Virus record (IMG/VR): IMGVR_UViG_3300023174_000036
Coordinates: 292,313-356,312 of that record
From: a virus
Reading direction: 5' to 3' (one strand)
DNA length: 64,000 bases
The notes below the pieces were generated by a model that did not search any database, was not told where the DNA came from, and saw only the letters and a list, made by a program, of their open reading frames with translations. Shown one piece after another: positions 32,639 through 58,588 of this stretch. Position 1 is the first letter of the stretch, and each line of letters starts with the position of its first letter. The translations under genes and the position numbers were made by a program.

Positions 32639-33838
32639 ATGATTAATCACAAACCCTTTGAAGATCTAATACAAAACCTAAAAGATTCAGGAAAATATCG
32701 TGTTTTTAACGATATCGTACGTGAAAACGGCAAGTTTCCTAATGCCATTTGGTACGGACCATACAACATCAAAAACATAGTGAACTGGTGCTCAAACGAT
32801 TATTTGGGTATGGGCCAGCACAAAGTGGTGCTGGATGCCATGCACACAGCACTGGACCATACTGGTTCGGGTTCTGGCGGTACTCGCAACATTGGCGGTA
32901 CCAGTCACTATCACGTGGCTCTGGAGCATGAGTTGGCAACGCTACACAAGAAAGAAAAGGCAGTGTTGTTTAGTTCAGCTTATGTGGCCAACGAATGGAC
33001 GCTGATTGCACTGGCTAAGATTATCCCCAACATTGAATACATCAGCGATGCCAATAATCACAACAGTATTATCATAGGTATTAGTCATAGTAAGGCAAAG
33101 AAAGTTGTGTTCAAACACAACGACTTAGAAGATCTAGAACAGAAACTCAAGATTAGTTTTGCACAAGGCAATACACCTTGCGTGGTATTTGAATCAGTTT
33201 ACAGCATGGATGGCGATGTGGGACACATCAAAGAAATATGTAGATTAGCTGAAAAGTACAAAGCTATAACATACATTGATGAAGTTCATGCTGTGGGCTT
33301 GTATGGTGCAACCGGTGGTGGCAAAGTAGAAGAGCTTGGACTTGAAAACAAAATTGACATAGTCAATGGTACCTTGGGAAAGGCCTACGGAGTTCAAGGC
33401 GGTTACATTGCCTGTGACCGGATTGTGGCTGATGCTATTCGCAGTGTGGCCGCCGGCTTTATCTTTACAACGTCAATGAGTCCAGTAACATGTGCTGGTG
33501 CAATGGGCGCAATCAAATATTTAAAAGCACATCCTGAGATCCGCGAGCGTCATCAAGAACGTGCCGCCACATTAAAACGCAGATTAAAAGAAGCATGTAT
33601 TCCTGTCATGGAGTCAAGTACTAGTCATATTGTGCCAGTATTTGTTGGCGATGCTAAACGTGCTAAAGCCATGAGCGATGCACTGTTAAATGACTATAAC
33701 ATTTATGTACAGGCTATCAACTATCCCACAGTTGATGTGGGAACGGAGCGGTTGCGATTTGCACCTACTCCGTTTCATGATGATGGAATGATTGAAGACT
33801 TAGTTGAAGCATTAACTAAGTTATTTAATACAAACTGA
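32639..33838 (+). CDS. hemA: 5-aminolevulinate synthase (ALAS)
   Basis: PLP enzyme condensing glycine and succinyl-CoA, the first step of haem synthesis by the C4 route. 399 residues, full length. [17 protein letters not shown] (77-91), [10 protein letters not shown] (111-120), YIDEVHAVG with D214 and H217, and PLP lysine K248 in [27 protein letters not shown] near the C-terminus is characteristic of ALAS rather than the related KBL or BioF. TTAAATA at 32625-32631 lies 7 nt before ATG, with no ribosome-binding site, so a leaderless late message is likely. A stand-alone gene in opposite orientation to its neighbours, suggesting insertion. Confidence 0.9.
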
Positions 33839-42391: not shown

Positions 42392-43038
42392 TATGCTGTG
42401 TTCCTCATAGGGTCTACTGGTCTACCAGCAACATGTGTTTCCCAATGTAAATGCGGTCCAGTGCTGTGTCCAGTATTGCCTGACAACGCAATCACTTCTC
42501 CAGCAGTAACCTGATCATTGGTTTGAACTAAAATTTTAGAAAGATGGAAGAATTTATGCACAACTCCGTCAGCATCCAGTATTACATAGTTGCCTTCACC
42601 ACTTTTCGAACTGCCAGCGCCGGTAACTACTCCATCCGCTGGCGCAACTACCTTGGTACCTGTAGGTACTGAAAAATCTGTACCGTTATGATTGCGGGCC
42701 GAGCCTACACTAGTTCTGTAACCGAATGGACTAGATACTGGCCCTTCAACTGGTACAATTGATGGTTCTTGTTTGCTTAATATCCTGCGAGCTGGGCGAT
42801 TCTTTTTTTCGTATGATTTAATTGCAAGAGGATCTGGTTTTTGAGTGTCTTTAGGATCTATGCCCTTGGCATAAGCATCTATAGCGGCTTGGGTATAAGG
42901 ACCTACAATGCCGTCTACACCGTCTCCATTGGGTCCGTACGGACCTAGATCATAGCCCAGATCTCGCAACTTTTCCTGAGTTTTTACAACGGCAGGGTCA
43001 CTAGTGGCTTCTAAAATAAGGAATTCTTTTGCTCTCAT
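42391..43038 (-). CDS. Tagged peptidoglycan-binding + M23 endopeptidase
   Basis: 215 residues. Starts MRAKEFLILEATS, close to T4 internal-protein tags, with predicted cut after LILE. Residues ~15-60 resemble a PG_binding_1 repeat (TQEKLRDLGYDLGPYGPNG; DGIVGPYTQAAIDAY). The M23 domain has NHNGTDFSVP (H, D zinc ligands) and TGPHLHWETH (H-x-H). A lysostaphin-type cross-link cleaver. GATAAATA box at 43045-43052. No signal peptide. Confidence 0.87.
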   Translation of the reverse strand: MRAKEFLILEATSDPAVVKTQEKLRDLGYDLGPYGPNGDGVDGIVGPYTQAAIDAYAKGIDPKDTQKPDPLAIKSYEKKNRPARRILSKQEPSIVPVEGPVSSPFGYRTSVGSARNHNGTDFSVPTGTKVVAPADGVVTGAGSSKSGEGNYVILDADGVVHKFFHLSKILVQTNDQVTAGEVIALSGNTGHSTGPHLHWETHVAGRPVDPMRNTA

Positions 43039-43859
43039 AATTTATATTTATCAAGCCATTCCTCCAAAGTGATCCAACGCTGGGTTCCTATGCTGTCTTC
43101 TAACTTAGATGTGTCTGAACAAGTGTATGTTTGATAGCTGGATTTGAGAATTTCAGGCATTTCTATGTATTCTATGGAAGAATCATACTTTCTACTGATT
43201 AAATCTGCAACATGTTGAAAACTAATAGCTTTACCAGTTCCAATGTTCCATACACCAGAATCTTTGACACGTTTGATATATTCTACGTGTACCCTACAGA
43301 TATCCTCAACAGCAATAAAATCACGTAGGTAATTATCACTGTTGTGAAATAGTTTAATCTTACCAGACTCTGCTTGTTTGCTGAATTGGCTTACAGGACT
43401 GCCTTGATTACCTTTGTGTTCTTCTTGGTTGCCGTACACATTAAAATATCGGAAACCTTGTACTATATTGCCGCCTTGGTGTTGCTTGTGATAATATTCA
43501 CACAGGTACTTGCTCCATGCGTATGGCGTACGGGGATCTGGCATTGCTGTTTCTTTAAAGTCTGTGCCAAATCCGTAAACACTTGCACTACTGCTGTATT
43601 GAAAATTAACGCCGTATGTTTTACAAGCATTGAACAACTGTCTAGTAAAGTCTACATTTTGTCGCATTACTTTATCTAAATCGCGTTCTGTTGTACTGCT
43701 GATTGCACCTATATGTATTACCCAATCTTGTTCCATTACACTGGGCATGTTGCTGTCACCCCATTCATATAGATCCACACTCCAGTCTGTGTTGTCGTAG
43801 ATGTACTGCACTAAATTTTGTCCTATGAATCCTTTGTAACCAGTTACCAATACTCTCAT
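43035..43859 (-). CDS. NAD-dependent sugar epimerase, HldD-like
   Basis: 274 residues, extended SDR family. GYKGFIGQNLV (NAD loop), IHIGAISSTTERDLDKVM, YSSSASVYG, then Y-x3-K in YAWSKYL, GFRYFNVYGNQEEHKG and RDFIAVEDICRVH. This combination matches ADP-L-glycero-D-manno-heptose 6-epimerase. Overlaps the kinase and M23 genes by 4 nt each. A second, more distant paralogue is at 45361-46185. Confidence 0.82.
   Translation of the reverse strand: MRVLVTGYKGFIGQNLVQYIYDNTDWSVDLYEWGDSNMPSVMEQDWVIHIGAISSTTERDLDKVMRQNVDFTRQLFNACKTYGVNFQYSSSASVYGFGTDFKETAMPDPRTPYAWSKYLCEYYHKQHQGGNIVQGFRYFNVYGNQEEHKGNQGSPVSQFSKQAESGKIKLFHNSDNYLRDFIAVEDICRVHVEYIKRVKDSGVWNIGTGKAISFQHVADLISRKYDSSIEYIEMPEILKSSYQTYTCSDTSKLEDSIGTQRWITLEEWLDKYKL
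43045..43052 (-). promoter_or_regulatory. Late-type box GATAAATA
   Basis: 6 nt before the tagged M23 gene, inside the end of the epimerase gene. Confidence 0.5.
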
Positions 43860-44960: not shown

Positions 44961-45371
44961 TTATGACTTTCGTTTACGATTAGTTCGTTTGACAGCTGGC
45001 GCAGTGCTTGCTGGTTTGGCTTGACTATCACCGGGCATCACTCGGTAGTTGTCTTCCACACTGTCAGGAGTACTGACTTCAATTATGATACCTTGTTTGA
45101 TACAGATCAACTGATGCGGCTCCAGTGGAAAGTTTCTCCAAGTATCACCTTCATTAAGTATCTTGCTGTGCATACTTGCATCTTTGGTATCGATATACTT
45201 TACTTCAAACTGGCCTTCTAACACAAACCAAGTTTCGTCTTTCTCATCATGAAAGTGCATACTGAACTTTGCACCTTGTTTGAAGTACATGAGTTTACCG
45301 CAATATAAATCGTTGGTGGCAAATATCAGTTCGCCGCCCCATCCTTTTTCAACTTGTCCTTCAAGTCTCAT
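44961..45371 (-). CDS. Cupin protein, sugar-isomerase-like
   Basis: 136 residues. KGWGGELIFATNDLY and MHFHDEKDETWFVLEG (metal His, His, Glu), then PLEPHQLICI with the last His. Resembles the cupin of mannose-6-phosphate isomerase/sugar-nucleotide enzymes. It overlaps the second epimerase by 11 nt and adjoins the adenylyltransferase, so it should act on the same sugar. Confidence 0.78.
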   Translation of the reverse strand: MRLEGQVEKGWGGELIFATNDLYCGKLMYFKQGAKFSMHFHDEKDETWFVLEGQFEVKYIDTKDASMHSKILNEGDTWRNFPLEPHQLICIKQGIIIEVSTPDSVEDNYRVMPGDSQAKPASTAPAVKRTNRKRKS

Positions 45372-46185
45372 AATGTAACCACTCGAATACGTTTAACCAT
45401 TTTCTTTTTCCTATTGTCTCTTTTAGTTTAGTAAGATCTGCTTGCGTCTTCCAACGCATAGACTTGGCATACTCAGCACTTACAGGTTCAAATTCAATAG
45501 AGACCTTTTCCTGCTCTGCTATTTCTTCCGCAATATCTAAGAAACTGTGTGACAGTCCAGTACCTACATTCCATATGCCCGAACCATTCACTGTTTTTAT
45601 AAAATCTATCTGTAGTCGACACACATCTCCGACCCATGTCCAATCACGTTTTACTGTTTCGGCATTTTCCCAAACTGTGATCTTGCCTTCCTTACGAGCT
45701 TGTTCTCTCCATTTGTGTATAACATTGGACCGCTTGTCACGCAGGTGCATGTACTTGCCGTACACATTGAAGTATCTAAATCCCTGCACCATCACATGTT
45801 GCTCTTGTTGGAACACCCAACGATCAAATAGATATTTGCTCCATGCGTAAGGTGTATCGGGTTTGCACGGAGCATACTCGCTGAAGTCTTTGGTGTCACC
45901 GTACACACTACTTGAACTGGCATATTGCAAGTGTACGCCATGTCTATTACATTCTTCAAACAGCCATTGGCTAAACTCATAATTTTGTATCATGACTGCA
46001 TCAATATCCTTGGCAGTCATATCGGCTACGGCGCCCAAATGTATGACCCAGTCATACTCAATTACATTTGGTTTGCTTTTTGGATCCCAGTCCCATCCTT
46101 CAACTTGCCATCCTTCTTCAGCATGGCACCAGTCCATCATGTTTCGGCCAATGAACCCTTTGTAGCCCGTTATCAAAATCTTCAT
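45361..46185 (-). CDS. Second NAD-dependent epimerase, HldD-like paralogue
   Basis: 274 residues. GYKGFIGRNMM, IHLGAVADMTAKDIDAVM, YASSSSVYGDTKDF, YAWSKYLFDRWV and GFRYFNVYGKYMHLRDK follow the same order as the 43035-43859 product, so the two are duplicates that have diverged. Keeping both suggests different substrates. First gene of the cassette; AATAAATA box at 46206-46213, with an AAAGGG site near ATG. Confidence 0.82.
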   Translation of the reverse strand: MKILITGYKGFIGRNMMDWCHAEEGWQVEGWDWDPKSKPNVIEYDWVIHLGAVADMTAKDIDAVMIQNYEFSQWLFEECNRHGVHLQYASSSSVYGDTKDFSEYAPCKPDTPYAWSKYLFDRWVFQQEQHVMVQGFRYFNVYGKYMHLRDKRSNVIHKWREQARKEGKITVWENAETVKRDWTWVGDVCRLQIDFIKTVNGSGIWNVGTGLSHSFLDIAEEIAEQEKVSIEFEPVSAEYAKSMRWKTQADLTKLKETIGKRKWLNVFEWLHYET

Positions 46186-55106: not shown

Positions 55107-55443
55107 ACTACTAATTGCAGGCGCAGTGGGCTATTACATAGGCTCTTGGGTTAAAGAACAGATCATGCTGGTACGCATGGTTCGCAATGCCAAAGACATT
55201 ATCAAGTATTTGGAACATGCCCAAAAGGTACTTGAAGAAGTGGAAGTTGAAGGCCTGCCTGAAGATGCTATCGAAGTTGAAGTTGAGCGGGTCAATGGAT
55301 TTGTCTACGCTTACAACAAAATGACTGGCGAATTTTTGGCACAGGCACAGAGTCTACACCAAGTAATGACCTTGGCGGCCAAACGATATCCTGGCAAGAA
55401 GTTTTGGCATCCTGAACTCACTGAAGATAGCCGAACAGCTTGA
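55090..55443 (+). CDS. Membrane-anchored acidic protein
   Basis: 117 residues. N-terminal anchor (LFELLIAGAVGYYIGSWV), then a charged helix (NAKDIIKYLEHAQKVLEEVE), acidic beta part (DAIEVEVERVNGFVYAYNKM) and YPGKKFWHPEL. Last gene before a new promoter. Unknown role. Confidence 0.65.
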   Translation: MENLFELLIAGAVGYYIGSWVKEQIMLVRMVRNAKDIIKYLEHAQKVLEEVEVEGLPEDAIEVEVERVNGFVYAYNKMTGEFLAQAQSLHQVMTLAAKRYPGKKFWHPELTEDSRTA

Positions 55444-55468
55444 GTTTCATCTTTACCTGTAGTATACT
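55440..55468 (+). promoter_or_regulatory. Sigma-70 promoter
   Basis: TTGAGT-17-TATACT, near consensus. Serves the winged-helix gene at 55514. Confidence 0.65.
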
Positions 55469-55513
55469 AAGTCTAACTAGTGGATACTAGTAAAACTTAA
55501 AAGAGGAAATATT

Positions 55514-55786
55514 ATGAAATTCATTTCAAAAGAAACTAAGACCTACAAATTGTTCAATGCATTGTACAATGGTGAAAAAGTAACTGGTGCTCAAGCTGAA
55601 AAGCGTTTTGGCATCAAGAACATTGCTGCCGAAGCAAGCCGTATTCGTCAATCAGGTTATGCTGTTTACAGCCGTAGCCGTGTGGCTGGTAACGGTGTTA
55701 CTGTTACTGAATACGAAATGGGCAATGCCAGCCGCGAAATTATCGCACTTGGCTACAAAGCCAAAGCAATGGGCATCACACTTTAA
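55514..55786 (+). CDS. Winged-helix DNA-binding protein
   Basis: 90 residues. TYKLFNALYNGEKVTGAQAE, IKNIAAEASRIRQSGYAVYS and RVAGNGVTVTEYEMGNASRE form a helix-turn-helix with beta wing. Typical small phage regulator. AGAGGAAA site. Single-gene unit flanked by promoter and terminator. Confidence 0.8.
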   Translation: MKFISKETKTYKLFNALYNGEKVTGAQAEKRFGIKNIAAEASRIRQSGYAVYSRSRVAGNGVTVTEYEMGNASREIIALGYKAKAMGITL

Positions 55787-55804
55787 TTTTTAAAGTGCAA
55801 TCCG

Positions 55805-55830
55805 AAAGCTCGCTTAGGCGGGCTTTTTTA
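55805..55830 (+). terminator. Intrinsic terminator
   Basis: AAAGCTCGC-TTAG-GCGGGCTTT hairpin (55805-55826, one G-T pair), followed by a T-run. Closes the winged-helix unit. Confidence 0.88.
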
Positions 55831-55861
55831 TTGACTAAATATTTGTCAGGAGGACTCAACC

Positions 55862-56020
55862 ATGAAACAGAAAAAACTTTTAGTTAAACTGTACAGGGCT
55901 TGCGTCGACCATGATACAGAAACGGTTTCCGAACTGCGTAAAAAAGAGTTCGCTAAGATACTGAAACACAAGGCCGAAGGCAAACCATTTACAACAAAAT
56001 GGACGCTGGTGCAAATTTAA
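55862..56020 (+). CDS. Small basic conserved protein
   Basis: 52 residues. CAGGAGG site before ATG 55862; ACTAAATA box at 55834-55841. [17 protein letters not shown] then [18 protein letters not shown]: helical and basic, might contact nucleic acid. Function unknown. Confidence 0.7.
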
Positions 56021-56051
56021 CACAACTGTAACATTACACACCCGATACTAC

Positions 56052-56059
56052 GATAAATA
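56052..56059 (+). promoter_or_regulatory. Late-type box GATAAATA for plcP-agt
   Basis: 5 nt before plcP ATG; predicted start point coincides with ATG. Confidence 0.55.
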
Positions 56060-56064
56060 TTGCT

Positions 56065-56949
56065 ATGCAAAAAACTTATCGTAGTATTTTTGTGAGTGAC
56101 GTCCACTTGGGTACAAGAGACTGCAAGGCGGAACAACTCAATAATTTCCTCAAACACAATTCATGTGATACTCTCTACCTCGTTGGTGATATCATCGATG
56201 CTTGGAAAATACAACAAAACAAATGGCGTTGGAAACAAAGTCATACCAATGTGGTACGCAGAGTACTGGGTCATGCCAAACGCGGAACCCGTGTGGTATT
56301 CATAGCTGGTAATCACGATGAATTTCTGCGTCCCATGATACCATATGGATTCTCGTTTGGGCTTGTTGAAATACACAATCAAATAGAACACATAGGTGCA
56401 GACGGCAAGCATTATCTAGTCACACATGGTGACTTGTTTGACGGCATAACAAGATTGGCGCCTTGGATAAGTTTTTTAGGAGACAAAGCATATGATATCA
56501 TTTTATCGCTTAATAGCAAATTCAATTGGCTACGTCATCGTCTTGGTTTTGGGTACTTTAGTCTTAGTCAATATCTCAAACATAGAGTAAAACGTGCTGT
56601 GGACTTTATGTTCAAGTTTGAGGAAAATCTTGCCAACTACTGTAAAAAGCGTGGCTTTGACGGAGTAATATGTGGACACATACATCACGCAGAGATCAAA
56701 GAGATCAATGGTGTTGTGTACATGAATGATGGTGATTGGGTAGAATCATGCACAGCCCTAGTGGAACATTGGAACGGGCAGTGGGAGATAATTACTTGGA
56801 CACAGGAGAAGGATGATGTGGTTACTGATCCTAATAGCAGTACACGTGAACGATCCAACAGATCAGCCGGGAAGAGTGGAACTACAGTTCGCGGATCAAA
56901 AAACCTGCGAGCAGGCCCTAAGCACACTCAAGTGGCAACTAAAGTTTAA
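56065..56949 (+). CDS. plcP: PlcP-like metallophosphoesterase (phospholipase C type)
   Basis: 294 residues, calcineurin-like. Metal ligands read: D12 and H14 in SDVHLG, D42 in GDIIDAW, N83/H84/D85 in GNHDE, H121 in THGDLFDG, H205/H207 in GHIHH. Annotators often call this LpxH-like, but KAYDIILSLNSKFNWLRHRL and DGDWVESCTALVEH are traits of the PlcP group that hydrolyses membrane phospholipids to diacylglycerol in phosphate-starved bacteria. It is paired with an Agt-like glycosyltransferase, the known partner. GATAAATA at 56052-56059 ends 5 nt before ATG: leaderless late message. The last ~45 residues are a Ser/Arg-rich extension. Confidence 0.8.
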   Translation: MQKTYRSIFVSDVHLGTRDCKAEQLNNFLKHNSCDTLYLVGDIIDAWKIQQNKWRWKQSHTNVVRRVLGHAKRGTRVVFIAGNHDEFLRPMIPYGFSFGLVEIHNQIEHIGADGKHYLVTHGDLFDGITRLAPWISFLGDKAYDIILSLNSKFNWLRHRLGFGYFSLSQYLKHRVKRAVDFMFKFEENLANYCKKRGFDGVICGHIHHAEIKEINGVVYMNDGDWVESCTALVEHWNGQWEIITWTQEKDDVVTDPNSSTRERSNRSAGKSGTTVRGSKNLRAGPKHTQVATKV

Positions 56950-56970
56950 AAGTTTCAAGGTAGAAGGCAA

Positions 56971-57987
56971 ATGTCTAAGACAATCCTCATAATAACAGAC
57001 AATTTAAAGGATCAAATCAATGGCGTGGTTACCACCTACAAAAATATTGAGGCGTGTGCAACTCGTGACGGTTATAACGTTGTGGTGCTGGATCCCGGGT
57101 GGTTCAGCTACATTGATTGCCCTGGCTACAACGAAGTCAAGATTGCCTATCCCAGGAACTTGGGCAAGAAGATTGAGGAGATATCTCCGGATTATATCCA
57201 TATCGCCACAGAGGGTCCTCTTGGTCTGTGGGCTAGAGCATATCTTTCATTGGGTGATATTCGCCACAATACCGCTTATCATACTAAGTTTCCTGAAGGG
57301 TTGAAAAAGCTGTTTGGCATACCTGAAAGCCTAACGTGGCGTTTTGTACGTTGGTTCCACAAGCATTCAGGCAAGGTCTTGACCACAACACCCAGCATGG
57401 TTCGTGAACTCAAGTCGCATGGCTTTGGGGGTGAAGTTATACCCTGGACCCGTGGCGTGGATCGTGATATCTTTAACCCCAGCTATCGAGTCAAGACTGT
57501 GGTAAACGGTCCCGTATTGTTGTGTGTCAGCAGGGTCAGCAAGGAAAAGAATCTAGAAGCCTTCTTTGAATTGGACTACCCAGGTGCCAACAAGATCATG
57601 GTGGGCGATGGCCCCATGTTGGACACTTATCGAAAGGCCTACCCTGACGTCATGTTCACAGGCTTTAGGACTGGAGTGGACCTAGCACGTTACTATGCCA
57701 TGGCAGATGTGTTTGTGTTCCCCAGTCAGTGGGAAACGTTTGGCATTGTTATGATAGAAGCCATGGCCTGTGGCACACCTGTAGCCGCTTACCCATGCCA
57801 GGGTCCAGAGGATGTGATTGATGAGGGTGTAACTGGCTGTTTAAATGACGAGCTCAAGCAGGCTGTGAAAGATGCCTTAATGTTGAGCCGACAGCAGGTT
57901 TGGGAAGGCAGTGCCCGTTGGACTTGGCAAGAAGCGTGGCACATATTCCGTGACAATCTAGTGGAAATGAAATCGGGTACAAGATAA
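56971..57987 (+). CDS. agt: GT4 glycosyltransferase, Agt-like glycolipid synthase
   Basis: 338 residues. N-terminal acceptor domain: ILIITDNLKDQINGVVTTYK and DYIHIATEGPLGLWARAYL, NTAYHTKFPEGLKKLF. C-terminal donor domain: LLCVSRVSKEKNLEAFF, IMVGDGPML and E-x7-E in WETFGIVMIEAMACG. This matches Agt-type enzymes that put a sugar on diacylglycerol. Starts 21 nt after plcP, so the pair should act in series: PlcP makes diacylglycerol, Agt makes the glycolipid. Sugar donor not decidable. Confidence 0.82.
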   Translation: MSKTILIITDNLKDQINGVVTTYKNIEACATRDGYNVVVLDPGWFSYIDCPGYNEVKIAYPRNLGKKIEEISPDYIHIATEGPLGLWARAYLSLGDIRHNTAYHTKFPEGLKKLFGIPESLTWRFVRWFHKHSGKVLTTTPSMVRELKSHGFGGEVIPWTRGVDRDIFNPSYRVKTVVNGPVLLCVSRVSKEKNLEAFFELDYPGANKIMVGDGPMLDTYRKAYPDVMFTGFRTGVDLARYYAMADVFVFPSQWETFGIVMIEAMACGTPVAAYPCQGPEDVIDEGVTGCLNDELKQAVKDALMLSRQQVWEGSARWTWQEAWHIFRDNLVEMKSGTR

Positions 57988-58015
57988 GGTATCGCTGGAA
58001 TTCGTAACCAGCACT

Positions 58016-58037
58016 AAAGGGCCCCGGCTCTTTTTTT
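58016..58037 (+). terminator. Probable intrinsic terminator
   Basis: AAAGGG / CTCTTT stem around a GC-rich loop (58016-58033, one G-T pair), then T7 to 58037. It closes the plcP-agt unit. A GCTGG/CCAGC hairpin precedes it at 57993-58012. Confidence 0.7.
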
Positions 58038-58052
58038 ATGGCTATTCACTTC

Positions 58053-58082
58053 TTGCATACGCCACAAGGCGGCCTGTATAAT
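58053..58082 (+). promoter_or_regulatory. Sigma-70 promoter
   Basis: TTGCAT-18-TATAAT. The predicted start is at or next to ATG 58089, so the message may be leaderless. Confidence 0.6.
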
Positions 58083-58088
58083 TACAGT

Positions 58089-58376
58089 ATGCTTGATAAT
58101 ATATTTAAACCCACCCTGGATTGGATACGCGATGACTACACCAGTAATAGAATACGTTTTTGTCTTGAGAGCCTTGCTTGGGCTATCTCTATTGGTTGTA
58201 GTATCACTATGGCCACAACTGTGCCCACACCTCCCTTACTTGTCTTGTACCCAATTTGGATTACAGGTTGTGCTATATACGCTTGGTGCGCTTTTAGTCG
58301 GCGTTCCTTTGGTATGTTGGCTAATTATGTGCTTCTTACCACAATCGACACTGTGGGATTGATAAGGATGCTATGA
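58089..58376 (+). CDS. Conserved phage membrane protein
   Basis: 95 residues from ATG 58089. FKPTLDWIRDDYTSNRIRF then two or three spans (SLAWAISIGCSITMATTVPT; LLVLYPIWITGCAIYAWCAF; MLANYVLLTTIDTVGLIRML). I recognise the family from T4-like marine phages. Overlaps the next gene by 4 nt. Confidence 0.78.
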   Translation: MLDNIFKPTLDWIRDDYTSNRIRFCLESLAWAISIGCSITMATTVPTPPLLVLYPIWITGCAIYAWCAFSRRSFGMLANYVLLTTIDTVGLIRML

Positions 58377-58588
58377 TAACAGATGCCGAACTAGACACCC
58401 TGATAAACCAATTGGATGCTGTGTTGTTACAGTATAACCATTGCCCAGCCCATGAAGTAGCGGGCGCATTACTCAGCAGAATAACCTTGTTAATGACCAT
58501 GGATCCCTCAGTGGGCAAGCACATGCTGAAGTTTGTGTGGGAGAAACTGGACGAAATTGAACAAGCCAATCCGGGAGGTATGATATGA
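58373..58588 (+). CDS. Conserved small phage protein
   Basis: 71 residues, helical: LINQLDAVLLQYNHCPAHEV, AGALLSRITLLMTMDPSVGK. A family conserved in T4-like phages by recollection, usually beside the membrane protein found here. Function unknown. Overlaps next gene by 4 nt. Confidence 0.75.
   Translation: MITDAELDTLINQLDAVLLQYNHCPAHEVAGALLSRITLLMTMDPSVGKHMLKFVWEKLDEIEQANPGGMI

Follow-up and report, generated by a model that had tools for sequence, protein, structure and literature searches.

A probable host-PhoB-controlled operon for membrane lipid remodelling in a giant freshwater phage

Introduction

Can a phage draw phosphate from the membranes of the cell that it infects? Phage DNA is a heavy phosphate sink, growth in many lakes and seas is limited by the supply of phosphate, and phages are known to carry genes for phosphate uptake. 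The question is raised here by two adjacent genes on a viral contig, for a metallophosphoesterase and a GT4 glycosyltransferase, which a preliminary description based on the DNA letters alone had read as a PlcP–Agt pair for lipid remodelling.

In bacteria, PlcP yields diacylglycerol and Agt turns it into glycosyl-diacylglycerol, so that phosphate is spared (PMC4796936, PMC8528852, PMC9239053); both the plcP–agt gene order and the control of such operons by a Pho box have been described (PMC4796936, PMC8528852). Cyanophage genes can be controlled by the PhoBR system of the host (PMC10976474); the same paper cites work on pstS of P-SSM2, another phage gene for phosphate stress. Viral AMG tables list 'lpxH' under LPS biosynthesis (PMC10653327, PMC9611531). 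We found no paper on a phage plcP or plcP–agt in the open literature (subscription papers were mostly outside the scope of the search).

Here we describe what is probably a phage-borne lipid-remodelling operon, controlled by host PhoB, that frees phosphate. Family membership, catalytic residues, gene pairing, Pho boxes and purifying selection are established at the level of sequence, whereas catalysis, binding by PhoB and an advantage for the phage are inferred.

Results

Genomic setting

We analysed the final 64 kb (the window) of a viral record that is 356,312 bp long. Phage hallmark genes surround the pair, with families for ribonucleotide reductase subunits, tail, endolysin and virion proteins in the window, and the T4 major capsid family gp23 is present in the record. 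On the strength of these families we identify the contig as that of a T4-like jumbo phage; the carrier of plcP–agt is a giant, T4-like freshwater phage. The features of the locus are collected in Table 1. Both genes and the box in front of them are where the preliminary description had put them, including the 21 nt between plcP and the glycosyltransferase gene; it had missed the small ORF that overlaps the two and the Pho-box-like repeat upstream.

Table 1. Features of the plcP–agt locus, with positions counted from the first nucleotide of the window.
Feature	Position	Strand	Basis or remark
Pho-box-like direct repeat ATTTAAC-ACAA-CTGTAAC	56015-56032	+	second half-site good, first degenerate
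GATAAATA box (previously described as a 'late-type box')	56052-56059	+	5 nt before plcP ATG
plcP, calcineurin-fold phospholipase C-like metallophosphoesterase	56065-56949	+	294 aa; Pfam, identities, tree, AF2 model
small overlapping ORF, likely third operon gene, function unknown	56813-56992	+ (+1 frame)	59 codons/aa; family in 79/80 relatives
agt, GT4 glycosyltransferase of the Agt/GTcp clade	56971-57987	+	338 aa; identities, tree, GTcp residues, AF2
hairpin element GCTGGAATTCGTAACCAGC	57994-58012	+	between agt and terminator-like site
terminator-like hairpin with T tail	58016-58033	+	consensus scan; likely operon end

The esterase belongs to the PlcP family

The esterase scores 45 bits against Pfam Metallophos (cut-off 21.5). 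The calcineurin-type metal motifs (DxH, GD, GNHD, HGD and GHxH) are all present, as had been reported, and D12, H14, D42, N83, H84, H121, H205 and H207 are invariant in a 40-row alignment of phage and bacterial PlcP. The protein is 54% identical to P. aeruginosa PA3219 over 247 aa and 44% identical to S. meliloti SMc00171, versus 23% over 120 aa for E. coli LpxH. The P. aeruginosa comparison protein sits at the PA3219 position, with a glycosyltransferase directly after it and then a nucleotide cyclase; the S. meliloti protein is encoded next to LuxR-type genes and the gene for the AHL synthase, and we take it to be SMc00171. In a 107-row tree the esterase lies with PA3219 and SMc00171 on the PlcP side, and the LpxH proteins of E. 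coli and Bordetella stand behind a 100/100 branch; the earlier assignment to PlcP as opposed to LpxH thus holds. Together with the other viral copies the esterase forms one group inside PlcP (support 98/91). A single viral origin of this group is less sure than the PlcP/LpxH split because the deepest viral rows have long branches.

The core of the protein spans approximately residues 1-250, while residues ∼ 250-294 are predicted to be disordered (pLDDT ∼ 32). The AF2 model matches structures of the LpxH superfamily, with LpxH as the best match; since no PlcP is among the solved-structure matches, LpxH is simply the nearest structure. Median pN/pS of plcP is 0.18, indicating purifying selection. 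Judged by its sequence the esterase is a PlcP family member, from which hydrolysis of phospholipids to diacylglycerol is inferred.

The glycosyltransferase belongs to the Agt/GTcp clade

The second protein scores 86.7 bits with Pfam Glycos_transf_1 (cut-off 26.4). It is 39% identical over 337 aa to PA3218 (Agt1, encoded directly after PA3219) and 30% identical to PA0842 (Agt2), which we presume to be the P. aeruginosa protein beside plcR. The tree upholds the Agt assignment over other GT4 families: the phage protein falls into a 100/99 clade with PA3218 and the glycosyltransferases adjoining bacterial plcP, and PA0842 and three other GT4 proteins lie outside.

Residues essential in GTcp were taken from PMC8231724 and mapped onto 16 phage rows. 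G16, G82, G85, H104, R163, R190 and K195 are kept in these rows, as are T257, F258, G259, E264 and W320. Twelve of the 13 essential residues are identical in the phage enzyme; the 13th, the catalytic D256, is replaced by E255. At this position 14 of the 16 phage rows have E and two (L055, L072) have D. E is also found in PA0842, which has been reported to make GADG in E. coli (PMC8528852). The AF2 model (pLDDT 91.5) has a GT-B fold whose nearest structures are BshA, MshA and PimA, and a median pN/pS of 0.26 points to purifying selection on agt. The glycosyltransferase is a member of the Agt/GTcp family, and glycosylation of diacylglycerol is inferred from that membership. Matches to it in 'Acinetobacter phage MD-2021a' (H7, H15) were set aside, since the presence of prc, iscX and ndk makes that contig look bacterial.

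plcP is paired with a glycosyltransferase gene in many viruses

A scan of viral contigs found at least 600 that encode plcP of the window type and 339 that encode the glycosyltransferase. The genes annotated 'lpxH' in Mosig and S-SRM01 are relatives of the window plcP; Mosig-type plcP is found on 109 viral contigs and S-SRM01-type plcP on 176 (the sets may overlap). A gene for a phosphorus-free lipid next to plcP is a common, though not universal, trait of PlcP, and here agt follows directly downstream. Among the 80 closest relatives (the best 80 of at least 600), 78 have a glycosyltransferase directly after plcP, in 27 cases Agt and in 51 an unrelated GT2. Of the remaining two loci, one has plcP and agt separated by an ATP-grasp-like gene and the other lies on a contig that ends there. 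In L074, for example, the agt slot holds a GT2 of ∼ 238 aa starting 900 nt after the start of the plcP match, and ∼ 50 other loci are arranged likewise. On the larger contigs searched, phages of the GT2 type have no Agt, with the exception of one 524-kb contig. That contig (524,565 bp; L063 and L390) carries both plcP–GT2 and plcP–agt and is either a two-copy megaphage or a chimeric assembly.

Of the 80 closest bacterial plcP genes, the majority are closely followed by a gene for an Agt homologue; no homologue of the phage GT2 was found in bacterial plcP loci. In the set retrieved with Mosig, a GT4 or GT2 adjoins plcP in most loci and the neighbours vary; L204, with a plcP 94% identical to the Mosig gene, has a glycosyltransferase neighbour. 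plcP–GT pairs are also found in unrelated neighbourhoods (e.g. L204, L215, L233, L252, L268). The S-SRM01 set, the cyanophage-type relatives, showed neither a glycosyltransferase nor a Pho box, and these copies may have another role.

Two observations on the wider loci are added here. A 669-kb contig in a Methylotenera MAG (L104) has a plcP that clusters with viral copies; it was treated as phage-like because its neighbours are small unknown genes, which is not proof, and is probably a huge phage binned with the bacterium. In L011 (2245-2949 nt after the start of the plcP match) and in 20 other loci, about a quarter of the 80, a gene for a DesA-family fatty acid desaturase lies close to the plcP operon and is a further lipid gene of these phages.

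A small ORF overlaps both genes

The 59-codon ORF overlaps the 3' end of the esterase gene and the first 22 nt of the glycosyltransferase gene. Its predicted product has a hydrophobic N-terminus and two Cys residues; it has no Pfam match, and a search for homology with Mosig_00121 found none. A profile of the ORF matches once per locus in all but one of the best 80 of at least 600 related loci. Within the overlap, pairwise identity is 62% in the frame of the small ORF versus 39% in that of plcP. Given this conservation, we regard the esterase tail (∼ residues 250-294) as mostly an overprinted extension. The ORF is likely the third component of the operon.

The promoter seems to combine a Pho-box-like repeat with a phage-type box

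The box in front of plcP had been called 'late-type'. It is present, but the promoter is probably not simply late, as a Pho-box-like repeat (ATTTAACACAACTGTAAC) lies just upstream. TAAATA also precedes other phage genes (∼ 17 of the 218 ORFs in the window, mostly 4-7 nt before the ATG), which suggests a composite promoter in which a host Pho box is linked to a box of phage type. In the stretch 56052-56064, only 5 nt separate the end of TAAATA from the start codon of plcP, and no clear ribosome-binding site is seen; if TAAATA acted as a -10 element, transcription would yield a leaderless message.

Taken alone, the Pho box of the window is weak. Against a PWM derived from the boxes of 32 relatives (without the window) it reaches 11.9 bits, a score attained by 0.02% of shuffles and exceeded at four other sites in the 64-kb window. 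We count it because its position is conserved across the lineage. In 22 loci of the relatives the gap between Pho box and TAAATA is 11 nt, and in 10 others it is 21-22 nt, one helical turn more; the 75 bp upstream of plcP contain a TGTAA(C/T) repeat with an 11-nt period.

The strict consensus CTGTCATN4CTGTCAT was taken from PMC8528852 and not fitted to the phage upstream sequences. Its mean best site upstream of plcP is 9.4/14, compared with 7.6 in dinucleotide shuffles and 7.7/14 upstream of other ORFs. A degenerate pattern, [CTG]TGT[CA]A[TC]N4[CTG]TGT[CA]A[TC], was written after inspection of the upstream sequences and is matched exactly upstream of plcP in 32 of 56 non-redundant relatives versus 0 of 11,200 shuffles. 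A second set, fetched with the glycosyltransferase and partly made up of the same contigs, gave 19/52 versus 0/2,600 shuffles. When one mismatch is allowed, 67 of 99 non-redundant loci have a box versus 0.24% of shuffles. The pattern was found in only 3/49 loci of the Mosig set and in 0/30 of the S-SRM01 set. The expectation that related phages would carry Pho boxes upstream of the pair is therefore met far above chance. The boxes on plcP and pstS are statistically strong as sequence matches, and binding of PhoB to them is inferred; in a cyanophage, predicted Pho boxes only partly matched PhoB binding, and such predictions need testing (PMC10976474).

Phage pstS shares the box and the neighbourhood

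Apart from plcP, the Pho box stands almost only before phage pstS, which accounts for 10 of the 12 other Pho-box ORFs in the plcP loci; the phage PstS scores 393 bits on the PstS equivalog model (cut-off 339). pstS adjoins plcP in 13 loci. It was found in three of 18 records searched, each time beside plcP, and four plcP genes that have no Pho box have a pstS with a box immediately upstream. A phage pstS with its own Pho box adjoins plcP in, for example, L042, L073, L065 and L047. In the window's phage a protein search detected no pstS. The best of 250 Burkholderiales, Limnohabitans among them, are ∼ 73-75% identical to the PstS of the relatives. As a pointer to a Burkholderiales host this similarity is suggestive only.

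Discussion

The operon lies behind what looks like a copy of the bacterial phosphate-starvation switch, and for this reason the phage can probably mine phosphate from the host membrane when phosphate is scarce. In the mechanism that we propose, PhoB of a starving, infected host would bind the Pho box and, together with the TAAATA element, would activate transcription of plcP, the small ORF and agt. Host phospholipids would then be cleaved by PlcP into diacylglycerol and the phosphorylated head group, and Agt would transfer a sugar from a UDP-sugar to the diacylglycerol, leaving the membrane intact; the freed phosphate could enter phage DNA synthesis. In other members of the lineage the unrelated GT2 takes the agt slot, and some have pstS in the cluster for phosphate binding.

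The phage operon has the same enzyme families and gene order, and by inference the same Pho-box control, as the bacterial PlcP–Agt systems (S. meliloti SMc00171, P. aeruginosa PA3219-PA3218, Pelagibacter HTCC7211 PlcP-GTcp). It differs from them in that it is phage-encoded with a largely virus-only PlcP group, has a short promoter in which TAAATA almost adjoins the ATG and an extra small overlapping ORF, and often has Agt replaced by GT2. Like phage pstS and the phage genes under PhoBR control (PMC10976474), it would be a set of phosphate-stress genes read by host PhoB; however, those known genes serve transport and nucleotide metabolism and have a cyanobacterial Pho box, whereas plcP–agt targets membrane lipids and has a CTGTCAT-type box. 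We lean, with rather less assurance than for the operon itself, towards the wider view that large aquatic phages have evolved a membrane-phosphate mining operon of their own, comprising a virus-specific PlcP, an interchangeable Agt or GT2, the small overlapping protein, sometimes pstS, and a Pho box plus TAAATA promoter, which would swap phospholipid for glycolipid only under phosphate scarcity.

Several other explanations have to be set against a phosphate-freeing operon. The usual database annotation would make the pair an LPS-modifying cassette, with a true LpxH-like lipid A enzyme and an LPS glycosyltransferase, and both the database names (such as UDP-2,3-diacylglucosamine diphosphatase) and the top structural match agree with it. 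The same name is, however, carried by the characterized P. aeruginosa PlcP, and the esterase reaches only 47 bits on the NCBIfam LpxH equivalog (cut-off 134) and 33.8 bits on a second LpxH model (cut-off 190). It also has GNHDE where E. coli LpxH has GNRDF. With the tree (100/100 split), the model scores and the motif all placing the protein outside the LpxH clade and without GNRD, we rejected an LpxH identity and consider such a cassette very improbable. Still less weight is due to the idea that plcP–agt is bacterial DNA on a mis-binned or chimeric contig. Homologues of both genes exist in bacteria and the record is of metagenomic origin, but the pair is embedded among phage hallmark genes, the viral PlcP group is separate, hundreds of independent viral contigs encode plcP and the isolate Pelagibacter phage Mosig has it as well; contamination was rejected on the hallmark genes and the viral clade.

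If the esterase is correctly identified as PlcP, the glycosyltransferase could still act on phage DNA, a glycan or a protein, its adjacency to plcP being incidental. GT4 families are functionally broad, the identity to Agt1 is only 39% and the alternative GT2 is of unknown specificity, all of which would fit. We nevertheless find this unlikely in view of the strict adjacency in 78 of 80 loci (the best 80 of at least 600), the position of the enzyme in the clade of plcP-adjacent bacterial Agts and the retained equivalents of the DAG-binding residues H104, R163 and W320 (residues from PMC8231724). A more serious contender, which we hold possible though not favoured, accepts lipid remodelling under PhoB control and places the selected benefit in an altered envelope, not in phosphate supply. 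The benefits meant are superinfection exclusion, resistance to grazers or antibiotics, or membrane mechanics during assembly, each to be taken just as tentatively. Lipid-remodelled cells respond differently to antibiotics (PMC8528852) and to predators (PMC9457565), and membrane lipids are reported to affect phage attachment (PMC9938194). The swapping of unrelated enzymes in the GT slot could reflect selection on the lipid made. Against this, the Pho box that plcP has in common with pstS, and the presence of pstS in the cluster of some relatives, speak for phosphate economy, and on these grounds we favour phosphate supply. The two benefits are not mutually exclusive, and a change of the envelope may accompany the supply of phosphate. 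Remodelling of host lipids for phosphate, as proposed for the pair at the outset, is thus supported by both trees and by the Pho boxes upstream in the relatives.

Phages appear, then, to carry machinery that takes phosphate from host membranes under the host's own starvation switch. If true, this adds lipid remodelling to viral metabolism and provides an example, open to direct test, of a virus that reads the nutrient status of its host. The AMG entries named 'lpxH' (PMC10653327, PMC9611531) share their metallophosphoesterase family name with the phage esterase. The phage sequences that we tested fall with PlcP and not with LpxH, although the sequences of the AMG tables themselves were outside the comparison; viral lpxH entries may partly be plcP, which suggests that some in the AMG catalogues are mislabelled.

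Two elements follow agt. The scan for the terminator consensus gave no clear excess over chance across the whole region, and no RNA families were found in 55400-58400. The hairpin GCTGGAATTCGTAACCAGC occurs once in the window (0.01 expected with ≤ 2 mismatches) and without mismatch in 19 fetched loci. This conserved hairpin (GCTGGANNTCGTAACCAGC), of unknown role, lies after agt in the window and, in several relatives, just upstream of plcP behind pstS. Elsewhere in the window, two NAD-dependent epimerase-family proteins (43035-43859 and 45361-46185) and an aminotransferase (32639-33838) are encoded, possibly sugar-nucleotide enzymes.
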